Source: Clostridia bacterium (GTDB lineage Bacteria > Bacillota > Clostridia > Christensenellales > CAG-138). From it: DNA of 64,000 nt. The position numbers and the translations under genes are program-made. Location of the stretch: positions 62,001-126,000 of the forward strand of contig JAFYOP010000004.1 in assembly GCA_017547885.1 (NCBI GenBank). The letters are read 5' to 3'. Under the pieces are notes generated by a model. That model had not been told where the DNA came from, ran no database searches, and was given only the letters and a program-made list of their open reading frames with translations. Of the stretch, positions 11,059-44,842 are shown piece by piece (positions within the stretch are counted from its first letter, which is position 1; the number at the start of each line of letters is the position of its first letter).

Positions 11059-11087
11059 AGCAAGAGAATATTCAAGGAGGAATTTTC

Positions 11088-11780
11088 ATGCAGTATTCAC
11101 GTGAAGTGGAAGAAATGTATTGCGTTGCAAAGGGCGCAAAGCATGAACCCGCCCCCATACCCGAAGAGGGCAAATGGGTAAAAGCCAAGGAGATCAAGGA
11201 CATCAGCGGCCTGACCCACGGCGTAGGCTGGTGCGCACCCCAGCAGGGCGCCTGCAAGCTGACCCTTAACATCAAGGAAGGCATCATTCAGGAAGCATTG
11301 GTAGAGACTCTGGGCTGCTCCGGCATGACCCACAGCGCCGCCATGGCCTCTGAGATACTTCCCGGCAAGACCATTCTGGAAGCACTGAACACCGACCTCG
11401 TATGCGATGCCATCAACACCGCCATGAGGGAGCTGTTCCTTCAGATAGTATACGGCCGCAGCCAGAGCGCCTTCTCCGAGGGCGGCCTGGTAATCGGCGC
11501 CGGCCTTGAGGACCTGGGCAAGGGCCTCCGCAGCCAGATCGGCACCATGTACGGCACCCTCAAGAAGGGCCCCCGTTATCTGGAAATGGCAGAGGGCTAT
11601 GTTCTGGGTATCGGCGTTGACGAGAACAACGAGATCATCGGCTACAAGTTCGTACACCTTGGCAAGATGATGGATGCCATCAAGAAGGGCGTAGACCCCA
11701 AGGAAGCTTACGAGAAGAACATCGGCACCTACGGCCGCTTTGCAGAGGCCGTGAAGGTTCTGGACCCCCGCAAGGAATAA
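11088..11780 (+). CDS. Iron-sulfur cluster scaffold-like protein (IscU/NifU-N family)
   Basis: Start at 11088 with AAGGAGG 7 nt upstream. The 230-aa protein has the IscU-like cysteine pattern spread through it: Cys in HGVGWCAPQQGACKLTL and in the LVETLGCSGMTHSAA segment, which resembles the IscU GCG/S-x-A-S core. It is longer than classical IscU. It is followed after 13 nt by the GGGtGRT gene, a pairing found across anaerobes. A role in Fe-S or other metal cluster handling is likely but not proven. Confidence 0.75.
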   Translation: MQYSREVEEMYCVAKGAKHEPAPIPEEGKWVKAKEIKDISGLTHGVGWCAPQQGACKLTLNIKEGIIQEALVETLGCSGMTHSAAMASEILPGKTILEALNTDLVCDAINTAMRELFLQIVYGRSQSAFSEGGLVIGAGLEDLGKGLRSQIGTMYGTLKKGPRYLEMAEGYVLGIGVDENNEIIGYKFVHLGKMMDAIKKGVDPKEAYEKNIGTYGRFAEAVKVLDPRKE

Positions 11781-11793
11781 GGAGGGCGGCATA

Positions 11794-12789
11794 ATGGCAA
11801 CTTTTGAAGGTTACGAAAGAAGAATAAATCAGATCAACCCCGTACTGGAACAGTATGGCCTCAAGACCCTTGAAGAGGCAGACGAACTCCTTAAGGCCAA
11901 GGGCATTGACGTACGCTCCATCGTGCTGGGCATTCAGCCCATCGCCTTTGAGAACGCCGTATGGGCATACACTCTGGGTGCAGCTATCGCCGTAAAGAAG
12001 GGCGTTAAGACTGCCGCTGAGGCTGCCGTGTGCATCGGCGAAGGCCTCCAGACCTTCTGCATCCCCGGCTCCGTTGCCGACCAGCGCAAGGTAGGCCTGG
12101 GCCACGGCAATCTGGCAGCTATGCTGCTGAGCGACAGCACAAAGTGCTTTGCTTTCCTGGCAGGCCACGAGAGCTTTGCAGCCGCTGAGGGCGCCATCGG
12201 TATCGCCCGCACCGCCAACAAGGTTCGCAAGGAGCCCCTGCAGGTTATCCTGAACGGCCTTGGCAAGGACGCTTCCTACATCATCTCCCGTATCAACGGC
12301 TTCACCTATGTTGAGACCGAGTACGATCAGTACACCGGCGAGCTGAAGGTAGTAGAGACCAAGGCATTCAGCAACGGCGAGCGCGCAAAGGTACGCTGCT
12401 ACGGCGCAGACGACGTAAACGAGGGCGTAGCCATCATGCGTCACGAGGGCGTAGACGTTTCCATCACCGGCAACTCCACCAACCCCACCCGCTTCCAGCA
12501 TCCCGTTGCAGGCACCTACAAGAAGTGGTGCATTGAGAACGGCAAGAAGTACTTCTCTGTTGCTTCCGGCGGCGGCACCGGCCGTACCCTGCATCCCGAC
12601 AACATGGCAGCCGGCCCCGCTTCCTATGGCATGACCGACACCATGGGCCGCATGCACGGCGACGCCCAGTTCGCAGGCTCCAGCTCCGTTCCCGCCCACG
12701 TTGAGATGATGGGCCTCATCGGCGCAGGCAACAACCCCATGGTTGGCATGACTGTTGCTGTTGCGGTTGCTATCAGCGAAGCAAAGTAA
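11794..12789 (+). CDS. GGGtGRT protein (named for its motif), function unknown
   Basis: This 331-aa soluble protein carries the family-defining SGGGTGRT motif near residue 255, followed by HPDNMAAGPASYG. AAGGAGG precedes the ATG. Codon use is highly biased to the window's preferred codons, suggesting strong expression. It sits 13 nt behind the IscU-like scaffold gene, so the two are presumably one operon and may cooperate. No reaction is established for the family. Confidence 0.85.
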   Translation: MATFEGYERRINQINPVLEQYGLKTLEEADELLKAKGIDVRSIVLGIQPIAFENAVWAYTLGAAIAVKKGVKTAAEAAVCIGEGLQTFCIPGSVADQRKVGLGHGNLAAMLLSDSTKCFAFLAGHESFAAAEGAIGIARTANKVRKEPLQVILNGLGKDASYIISRINGFTYVETEYDQYTGELKVVETKAFSNGERAKVRCYGADDVNEGVAIMRHEGVDVSITGNSTNPTRFQHPVAGTYKKWCIENGKKYFSVASGGGTGRTLHPDNMAAGPASYGMTDTMGRMHGDAQFAGSSSVPAHVEMMGLIGAGNNPMVGMTVAVAVAISEAK

Positions 12790-12807: not shown

Positions 12808-12838
12808 AAAGGCATCCGGAATACCGGGTGCCTTTTTT
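12808..12838 (+). terminator. Terminator after the GGGtGRT gene
   Basis: AAAGGCATCCGG pairs with CCGGGTGCCTTT, followed by a TTTTTT run. Confidence 0.85.
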
Positions 12839-12856: not shown

Positions 12857-12886
12857 GTACCACAAACGGTACTTGTGTGGTATAAT
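12857..12886 (+). promoter_or_regulatory. Extended -10 promoter with overlapping inverted repeats, upstream of the structured RNA
   Basis: TGGTATAAT (TATAAT at 12881-12886). It is overlapped by TACCACA...TGTGGTA (7-bp arms) and, inside that, GTACC...GGTAC. The symmetry suggests a repressor site. The predicted start is near 12893. Confidence 0.6.
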
Positions 12887-12887
12887 T

Positions 12888-13165
12888 TAGGGTAACCAAT
12901 ATAATCCAAGCCATGGTTTTTGTGGTCATATGGCACGGCATAGCTGTGTCATCCTCCATTGCAATACATCCGGTATTGCTGCTGTCGTCTTTCTTGCTCT
13001 GCCGCACCCTATGGCCACAAAAACTCCATAGACCCAAAGCACCGGAATCGGATGAGATTCAAGGGATCGGAGTGCAGGAATAGTGGTGCTATTTCAAACG
13101 ACGACAACGAAGAAGCTCGCCGATTATGCTGCTTTGGGCAGGTTCGGATTACATTGGTTACCCTA
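12888..13165 (+). ncRNA. Candidate large structured RNA or leader, about 275 nt
   Basis: A 20-bp closing helix (19 of 20 paired) joins 12888-12907 with 13146-13165. Domain A closes with TTTTTGTGG (12917-12925)/CCACAAAAA (13015-13023) plus ATGG (12913-12916)/CCAT (13026-13029), and holds GCAATAC (12961-12967)/GTATTGC (12973-12979). Domain B closes with CCCAAAGC (13033-13040)/GCTTTGGG (13131-13138), and holds GAATC/GATTC (13045-13060) and AATAG/CTATT (13079-13093). A promoter lies directly upstream and no terminator follows. It therefore reads into the membrane protein gene 20 nt downstream. It matches no RNA class I can recall; RNase P, SRP and 6S consensus blocks were not seen. Confidence 0.65.
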
Positions 13166-13185
13166 TGGCGCAATAAGGAGGACAT

Positions 13186-13467
13186 ATGGGATTCTTATCG
13201 TATTTATTCGGCCTGCTGAGCTTGCTTTGCTCGGCGGATGCAGCTGTGCTGCACACAGGCATTGCAGATGCGCTGCCATGGTTTACCGGCATGGGGGCGG
13301 CGGTGGCGGGCTGCCTTATCGCCGTGGTGTGGTACTATGAGATAAAGGCCACCGAAAAGGCGAAAAAGCACAGGGCAAAATCCTTTGCCGCAATGCTTTT
13401 TAATGTGATAGCCTGCATACTTGCTGTAAGCCTGCTGATAATGGGCATACTGGAGAGCATAATATAG
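13186..13467 (+). CDS. Small membrane protein of 93 aa, function unknown
   Basis: ATG at 13186 with AAGGAGG at ideal spacing. The protein has three hydrophobic segments (about 1-20, 30-52 and 66-90), with a short basic stretch KATEKAKKHRAKS between the second and third. It lies just behind a 275-nt structured RNA region and 9 nt ahead of the WYL regulator gene, so all are probably transcribed together. No family is recognised. Confidence 0.7.
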   Translation: MGFLSYLFGLLSLLCSADAAVLHTGIADALPWFTGMGAAVAGCLIAVVWYYEIKATEKAKKHRAKSFAAMLFNVIACILAVSLLIMGILESII

Positions 13468-17708: not shown

Positions 17709-19019
17709 ATGAGCTATCGTGTTGTGCACTATATAAATCAGTTTTTCGCAAATATCGGCGGCGAGGATATGGCACATGTACCACCTGAGCTTCGGGAGGG
17801 GGCAGTTGGTCCCGGTATGGCGCTGCAGCAGGCATGGAATGGAGGGGCTGAGATAGTTTCCACAATCGTGTGCGGCGATTCATATTTTGCCGAGCATGAA
17901 AGGGAGGCAAGGGAGCAAATACTTGCATGGGTAAAGGACGCAAAGCCTGACATATTCATTGCAGGCCCCGCATTTAACGCGGGACGGTATGGATACGCCT
18001 GCGCAAACATTGCGCTGTCGGTACAGGATGAGCTTAATATACCTGTGCTTACAGGCATGTACGAGGAGAACCCCGGCGCTGATATGAGGGACAAAATTTT
18101 GATCGTATCCACATCAAACAGCGCCGCGGGAATGCGAAAGGCGGCGCCCGCCATGGCGGCTCTGGCTTTTAAGCTTATGAATGGGGAAGAAATAGGCCCC
18201 TCCGTGGTGGAGGGATATATGCCAAACGGCATACGCAAAAACTTTTTTGAAAAGGAGCGGGGGGCAAAGCGTGCGGTAAGGATGCTTATAAGCAAGCTTA
18301 ACGGCAAGCCCTTTGTTACGGAGTTTCCCATGCCCTCATTTGACAGGGTAACCCCCAATCCTGCCGTAAAGGATATGAGCCGCGCAACCATAGCCCTGTG
18401 TACTTCCGGCGGCATAGTGCCAAGGGATAATCCCGACCGAATTGAAGCATCTTCCGCTTCACGCTATGGAGAATACAGCATAGCGGGGGTGGACAGCCTC
18501 ACAAAGGGGGCATACGAAACGGCCCATGGGGGCTATGACCCTGTGTATGCCAATGAAAACCCAAACCGCGTGCTGCCCGTGGACGTACTGCGTGAGCTTG
18601 AGAGGGAAGGCAGGATCGGTAAGCTTTACGATGTATTTTATTCTACGGTGGGCAACGGCACATCTGTGGCAGCATCCAGAGCCTATGCGGAGGAATACGC
18701 AAAAAAACTGAAGGATGCAAATGTGGATGGAGTCATAATGACATCCACCTGAGGCACCTGCACCCGTTGCGGCGCAACGATGGTAAAGGAAATAGAGCGG
18801 GCGGGCATACCCGTGGTGCATATGTGCACGGTGACTCCCATTTCGGTAACCGTTGGGGCAAACAGGATAGTCCCTACAGTGGCAATACCCTATCCCCTTG
18901 GAGATCCATCTCTTTCGGCAGAGGAAGAGTATACTCTTCGCAGGAGGCTGGTACAGAATGCCCTTGATGCCCTGTCCACAGAGGTGGAGGAGCAGCGAGT
19001 ATTTGAAAGACAGGGATAA
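17709..19019 (+). CDS. grdB: Glycine reductase protein B selenoprotein subunit (GrdB), internal UGA = Sec
   Basis: The gene reads through an in-frame TGA at 18750-18752: 347 codons, selenocysteine 348, then 88 more residues in the same frame to TAA. The total of 436 aa fits GrdB. Around the UGA the protein reads STUGTCTRCG, the conserved U-x-x-C-x-x-C of this family. Sec attacks the glycine Schiff base to give a carboxymethyl-selenoether that is handed to GrdA. A perfect helix CGTTGC/GCAACG (18765-18779) lies 12 nt after the UGA and is the likely SECIS stem. AAGGAGGG precedes ATG. Confidence 0.95.
18753..18784 (+). promoter_or_regulatory. Candidate bacterial SECIS element in grdB
   Basis: Directly behind the UGA at 18750, CGTTGC (18765-18770) pairs with GCAACG (18774-18779) around a GGC loop. 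Position and size fit a SelB-recognised hairpin; the loop bases do not need to match E. coli's. Confidence 0.55.
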
Positions 19020-43815: not shown

Positions 43816-44172
43816 GGGGGCGTACATGGTTTCGACGGGGATCATGGAGGCCGGATAAGCGAGCCGAAGACCCGTGCTTCGTTAAAAATGGGAAAATTTA
43901 AATTTAACTGGCAAATCTGATTTTGCACTCGCTGCCTAATTAGGCAGTGCGTCGGCCCGGGACTTCCCACGGCCCCGGTCACCGGCGTCATTAATGTGGG
44001 GAACCAGCCCGCTTAAGCTTTGCGGTGGGTGGGACTTTATGAAGCTACCAAAGCCCTGATCCTGTTGGTGGGAGCTGATTTGGCAGAGGGAAGGTTAAAA
44101 CATCAACTACGCTCGTAGAAAGTCTTGTTAACAGGTTTTCGGACAGGGGTTCGACTCCCCTCGCCTCCACCA
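43816..44172 (+). ncRNA. ssrA: tmRNA (one-piece)
   Basis: The 5' end GGGGGCG (43816-43822) pairs with CGCCTCC (44162-44168), followed by A and CCA: the tRNA-like acceptor. GTTCGACTCCCC near 44150 is the T arm. The coding part ends GKSDFALAA then TAA at 43937-43939, within the frame that can be read back to GAA at 43892. The exact resume codon is uncertain. The tag's ALAA end is the usual protease signal. It is followed by a strong terminator and then by AT-rich acquired DNA. Confidence 0.95.
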
Positions 44173-44549: not shown

Positions 44550-44576
44550 ATGACAGCCTCAATGCGTTTAAGATAA
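44550..44576 (+). CDS. Macrolide-sensing leader peptide MTASMRLR
   Basis: AGGAGGA lies 9 nt before ATG 44550; eight codons then TAA. The RLR end is the basic-x-basic motif at which macrolide-bound ribosomes stall, and the peptide closely matches known leaders in front of mef and erm genes. Stalling here would free the mef gene from the two hairpins downstream. Confidence 0.85.
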   Translation: MTASMRLR

Positions 44577-44586
44577 GCTGGCAATA

Positions 44587-44623
44587 AAAAAAGCAGAATC
44601 TATCCCCGATGATAGGCTTTTTT
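44587..44623 (+). terminator. First attenuator hairpin of the mef leader
   Basis: CTATC (44600-44604)/GATAG (44611-44615) stacked on GC/GC, flanked by A6 and followed by T6 at 44618-44623. It begins 10 nt after the leader stop. Confidence 0.75.
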
Positions 44624-44737
44624 GTTGTGCTTATTTATACGATATTGAGCATTCATTAGTTACGGTGAGATATAAGTTATTTAACTATACCTTTATTTAA
44701 CTATGTCTTTAATATGAATGTTTCCAAATTGTATGTA

Positions 44738-44780
44738 TGCAGACCAAAAGCCACATTGTGGATTTAGGCCTGCATTTTTT
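44738..44780 (+). terminator. Second attenuator hairpin of the mef leader
   Basis: TGCAG (44738-44742) pairs with CTGCA (44770-44774), with CCAC/GTGG at the tip, followed by six T (44775-44780). It is about 60 nt before the mef start. Confidence 0.8.
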
Positions 44781-44842
44781 ATTGCCTAGAATGCTATTCA
44801 AAATAGAAATTCGAGTAAAATAATATGCAGGAGATAATATAA

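Follow-up and report, generated by a model that had tools for sequence, protein, structure and literature searches.

What is the 278-bp segment of DNA that folds so strongly just ahead of a gene for a small hydrophobic protein in a 64,000-nucleotide stretch of a Clostridia genome (hereafter, the window): a leader RNA of that gene, an RNA with a role of its own, or an element of another kind? The initial annotation drew here a multibranched structure with a closing helix around two domains, and the fold stands: positions 12888-13165 reach -118.5 kcal/mol against a mean of -77.7 (sd 4.8) for 200 dinucleotide shuffles, of which 0/200 did as well (z = -8.5). The opposite strand is equally foldable (-117.9). 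Inverted-repeat searches resolve the structure into a closing stem of 25 nt on each side, 88% complementary (12888-12912 / 13141-13165), and two arms, A (12916-12944 / 12996-13024) and B (13033-13051 / 13120-13138).

The element and its surroundings

Listed from left to right, with terminal inverted repeats abbreviated TIR, the features of the locus are as follows.

12811..12838, plus strand: probable intrinsic terminator of the upstream gene, GGCATCCGG aata CCGGGTGCC then TTTTTT, judged from sequence only
12878..12886, plus strand: extended -10 sequence TGgTATAAT, outside the mobile element
12888..12889, no strand: left TA, probable 2-bp target-site duplication, from comparison of flanks across copies
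12890..12912, plus strand: left TIR, the outer part of the closing helix, common to the full-length copies L001-L004 and also to L016 and L018
12914..13026, minus strand: arm A, with outer helix, conserved internal loops and apical hairpin (inverted repeat and R1 match)
13027..13032, no strand: linker between the arms, unpaired in the minimum-energy fold, with a similar linker in all types
13033..13138, plus strand: arm B, with the anatomy of arm A in inverted orientation (inverted repeat and R1 match)
13141..13163, minus strand: right TIR (inverted-repeat search)
13164..13165, no strand: right TA, probable target-site duplication, from comparison of flanks
13175..13181, plus strand: ribosome-binding site AAGGAGG of the downstream gene
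13186..13467, plus strand: reading frame of a small hydrophobic protein of 93 aa, ATG at 13186, a neighbour outside the element (open reading frame list)

R1 is a covariance model of one arm that was built only from the window's family. It matches arm A on the minus strand (L001:1549-1615, that is, window 12936-13002) and arm B on the plus strand (L001:1667-1733, window 13054-13120), and these are the purine-rich, folded strands of the two arms. Six-frame translation of the 278 bp yields no plausible complete gene.

The extended -10 is present upstream of the element as initially described, accompanied by two overlapping palindromes, AGTACC..GGTACT and ACCACA..TGTGGT. Because a scan with promoter consensus sequences detects no -35/-10 pair at the element, the promoter upstream of it amounts to the extended -10 alone, and transcripts from 12878-12886 would begin inside the left TIR. 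The element then runs, again as described, into the ribosome-binding site of the 93-aa frame, the product of which has only a sub-threshold match to DUF3429. The element falls into no known RNA family, with no Rfam match at either gathering or permissive thresholds in searches that covered the window copy and about 25 loci.

Directly upstream of the element (11082-12789, plus strand) lie a NifU-like frame, recognized by a sub-threshold Pfam match, and then a gene of the GGGtGRT family. Elsewhere in the window, Rfam sRNA_1300, a family described from Enterococcus, matches the plus strand at 44553-44782 with 278 bits, some 380 bases downstream of the tmRNA (43816-44172). A SECIS_4 element (18753-18790, plus strand) begins one base after the end of the reading frame 17709-18752, which is probably read on through its stop to give a selenoprotein.

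Copies, ends and size classes across Clostridia

Five copies at unrelated loci occur in the window's own genome: the window copy, three full-length ones at 89-93% identity and one at 75%; one copy adjoins a glycine riboswitch. By DNA similarity, the element is patchy among relatives (3/61 genomes). Around the window copy, three types agree in length (268-280 nt) and in shape but differ in their ends:

Type I (window): GGGTAAACAATATAATCC
Type II: TACCATCAGTTGACAAG
Type III: (A/C)GGGG(T/C)AT(T/C)CCG

Type III occupies at least 40 places in G020, one of those three genomes, with up to 99% identity, and many of these copies are found where contigs stop, which is what a repeat that interrupts assembly should produce. 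For the types furthest apart, the TIR and the two outer arm helix strands are about 20-50% identical, and each 5' strand pairs with its own 3' strand at -17 to -42 kcal/mol, compared to mostly -7 to -20 when strands are swapped across types.

The repeat GGGTAAAC..GTTTACCC has TA on both sides in L001, L002, L004 and L016, and L003 is flanked by TG/TG at the equivalent place; in L018 and several class-level copies, the flanks do not match, and no empty site was recovered. With the exception of L018 and those class-level copies, the TA/TA and TG/TG flanks point to a probable 2-bp target duplication.

In L003, L005, L019 and L020, arm B and the reverse complement of arm A are homologous along some 53-61 nt (0/1000 shuffles reach the score), and therefore, the two-arm element is an inverted pair of one module. 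In the window copy, this homology is weak (56/1000 shuffles reach the score), and in type III, the arms have diverged past recognition.

At the level of the class, R1 matches are found in 35/396 genomes of the order and 40/391 of Clostridia, often ten or more per genome. Inverted repeats sought around the arms located 84 elements with TIRs, of which 52 are 153-194 bp long and carry one arm, and 30 are 268-293 bp long and mostly two-armed; the lengths concentrate around 157-172 bp for one arm and 271-286 bp for two. The TIRs are of many unrelated kinds, yet the arms are common to them. In G029, the TIR pattern has 69 matches and a reversed-pattern control has none; facing TIRs lie 74-280 bp apart and none of the pairs encloses a gene. 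The gene between two of the G029 copies we take, from its sequence, to be a DeoR-type regulator. A search of six genomes with the end pattern GAGTGTGTT likewise returned one-arm elements and not an IS.

The element is thus dispersed in multiple copies, has TIRs and TA-type flanks, and comes in two size classes, with its fold kept by compensatory change. In this light, the match that the initial annotation had named as its own potential refutation, a decayed insertion element with terminal inverted repeats, turned out to be half right: the TIRs are there, but almost all full-length copies have intact helices, so that decay is not what is seen.

Forty-six one-arm elements with 10-kb flanks allow orientation to be assessed. 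The purine strand is on the G-rich strand in 23/46, and the four possible orientations of the flanking genes, called as crude open reading frames, occur 13, 12, 11 and 10 times; the arms of these elements have no replication-strand or transcription-strand bias. Only 2/46 lie inside a predicted reading frame; the elements are mostly intergenic. Clustering of the reading frames beside copies recovered host genes only, with no recurrent transposase frame and no gene association. Effects of copies that lie ahead of genes on the expression of those genes are plausible, as predictions only.

Several individual arrangements deserve mention. At L111, L112, L114 and L118 (G013), type II ends stand alone without a partner, and two of these lie a short way ahead of a gene; it looks as though the remainder of an element had been lost. 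Type III copies often lie within the loops of apparent intrinsic-terminator hairpins (L078, L082, L084 and L087 in G020, L077 in G084), in the order A-tract, stem, element, stem, T-tract. In G745, an element of one type adjoins the CTAG end of a truncated element of another type and is bordered by CTAG left and right (L263:11250-11550 and L264:6100-6600), and at L269:13800-14250 the arm is a near-perfect palindrome, with the two ends from different TIR types.

Selection on the folded arms

Helices that are not conserved among relatives would have counted against the initial annotation; the covariation across copies strongly supports a conserved structure. Among 82 distinct arms, in an alignment that is biased towards R1, the ten pairs of the model hold in 97.1% of cells vs 59.8% in shuffled data, with 269 double-change cells vs 74. 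The same holds for 46 independent arms that come from genomes of other families, none of which was used in building the model: pairs hold in 88.4% vs 70.5%, and double-change cells number 93 vs 34. Pairs outside the R1 structure covary as well, the closing pair of the apical loop being C-G in 43 arms and G-C in 25. The strands of each type pair natively, and strands swapped between types do so much less well.

The loops CAAGGC / AACG(C/A)AG and G(C/A)AG / CAA are conserved across the class, and at two positions of the middle helix, most arms have tandem GA/GA mismatches, with AA/TT, CA/TG, TG/CA, GG/CC or CC/GG in the others. The exchange of the GA/GA block for a normal dinucleotide pair implies that the purine-rich strand folds by itself. 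The arms are selected as folded single strands; what follows on the role of that folding is conjectural.

Another origin of the covariation could be replication template switching within quasi-palindromes, whereby one arm is rewritten from the other without any selection, and the near-perfect palindrome at L269 looks like such a rewrite. However, template switching would erase mismatches, and the two internal loops as well as the GA/GA blocks persist unpaired throughout the class, so we consider this explanation quite improbable. Somewhat better placed, but still unlikely, is the possibility that in this mobile element the arms work as RNA: once transcribed, they would fold and be bound by a protein, serving as a guide, a scaffold or an RNA intermediate, and the element would spread by an RNA-dependent route. 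The internal loops, which are conserved, and the replacement of tandem G.A blocks by Watson-Crick pairs do look like RNA motifs, G.T wobbles exceed A.C mismatches on the purine strand by 68 to 28, and the two obvious kinds of DNA transposase, Y1 and DDE_3, do not fit. Against this scenario, the TIRs, the TA flanks and the dyad symmetry suit double-strand DNA transposition, and we noticed no promoter conserved with the element, beside the lack of an Rfam match and of a transcription-strand bias. Should the arm work as RNA after all, about a tenth of the sampled Clostridia genomes would carry a multi-copy structured RNA that is missing from Rfam.

The view from the window itself, namely, that the segment acts in cis on the 93-aa membrane protein gene as its leader RNA, be it a riboswitch or an attenuator, draws on its position between an extended -10 and a ribosome-binding site, and on the similar placement of L002 and L004, which stop 40 and 11 nt, respectively, short of an ATG that has a ribosome site. 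This part of the initial annotation has to be given up: an element with TIRs that recurs at many unrelated loci, including the apparent terminator loops in G020 and the place beside the glycine riboswitch, with random orientation among the 46 one-arm relatives and no association with a gene family, is very improbable as a leader. More generally, folded leaders that are spotted by eye may be mobile repeats. About as improbable is the idea that the element is REPIN-like and owes its movement to a single-strand transposase of the Y1 (RAYT/IS200) kind, for which the palindromic, mostly intergenic, multi-copy character and the lack of a visible autonomous partner would speak. Y1 transposases are uncorrelated with the element (10/19 carriers vs 8/19 non-carriers) and absent from the high-copy, near-complete carriers G029, G613, G608, G524 and G492, and TIRs with TA flanks, free of strand bias, are not REPIN-like.

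Mobility and kinship with known repeats

Very probably, then, the window element is a copy of a non-autonomous, MITE-like mobile DNA element that consists of two TIRs and two inverted hairpin arms, contains no gene and was inserted at TA, and the best reading of the whole set is a new Clostridia-wide family of such elements that resembles the ERIC, Correia and CIR repeats. Under this scenario, a DNA-cutting transposase supplied in trans would recognize the TIR ends and insert the element at TA, and the arms would have been retained since they are active as folded single strands, be it in single-stranded DNA, in a cruciform extruded during transposition or in a transcript. In a two-arm element, one purine-rich arm would fold correctly on each strand. 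The element in the window would have landed between the extended -10 and the ribosome site, and its transcription as a long 5' leader would be a by-product of that position.

Several observations count against the MITE-like reading: conserved internal loops are not something that an ordinary MITE would require, no mobilizing enzyme was found, and the target duplication rests on flanks with exceptions. A TA target combined with TIRs suggests an IS630/mariner-like enzyme, which is contradicted by the result of a profile search that found the IS630-type DDE_3 transposase in 0/19 carriers tested. No autonomous partner emerged from the spacing of TIRs in G000, G029 and G128, draft assemblies in which absence is not proof; no IS with a matching TIR was seen, and searches of phages, plasmids and viral contigs with the element gave no match. 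Some of the order-level TIRs (GAGTGTGTTTCTAAAA) recall, as far as we can judge, the IS5 family (IS427/IS1031/IS5 groups). Other candidates were set aside along the way: tRNA-like ends in L136, L141 and L148 (TTCGA motif), where ARAGORN finds no tRNA; group I/II introns, which yield no Rfam match; and lagging-strand, IS608-like insertion, given the even split of the purine strand noted above.

It is conceivable, although we put this forward tentatively and with more doubt than conviction, that the spread of these gene-less elements across Clostridia depends on the conserved folded single strand, as DNA or RNA, and on an enzyme that is neither of the IS630 type nor Y1, with the arm as the invariant recognition module and the ends free to diversify. 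If the arm does drive mobility, this would be an unrecognized way of moving DNA.

We found no description of the element in the literature on MITEs, Clostridia and structured repeats, of which our coverage is incomplete. ERIC, Correia, RUP and CIR are small mobile repeats, most of them with TA ends, and their mobilizers are mostly unknown (PMC2229807; PMC10969869). ERIC/IRU (RU-1) of enterobacteria, at 127 bp, with a 7-bp TIR and TA ends with target duplication, is similarly a small, gene-less, imperfect palindrome with TA at both ends and a mostly intergenic location (PMC2229807), whereas the Clostridia element is 160 or 278 bp long, with lineage-specific TIRs of 15-25 bp, a class-wide distribution, covarying arms and fixed internal loops. 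The Caulobacter CIR shares the two long inverted-repeat arms with a linker, a phylogenetically conserved structure and many intergenic copies (PMC2229807), but is about 110 bp long, with no TIR listed and with a conserved GANTC methylation site; in the Clostridia element, a junction is closed by the TIRs, and conservation falls on internal loops. Correia/NEMIS and RUP are likewise MITE-like, with TIRs and with a TA target duplication (PMC2229807), which in the Clostridia element is probable; the ends of RUP, however, are common to IS630-Spn1, in contrast to the Clostridia carriers tested, all of which lack DDE_3.

The likeness to REPIN/RAYT lies in multi-copy palindromes with no autonomous copy of their own kind nearby, and the difference in the TIRs and TA flanks and the missing link to Y1. 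With riboswitches and other leaders, the element shares a covarying fold that, in the window, is upstream of a gene, but it is mobile, tied to no gene family and free of strand bias. The conserved arm module, the two-size architecture and the class-wide spread set the Clostridia family apart from ERIC, Correia, RUP and CIR. What usually defines a bacterial MITE is a pair of ends taken over from a transposase, the middle being disposable; the Clostridia element reverses this arrangement, its middle being conserved across the class and its ends not.
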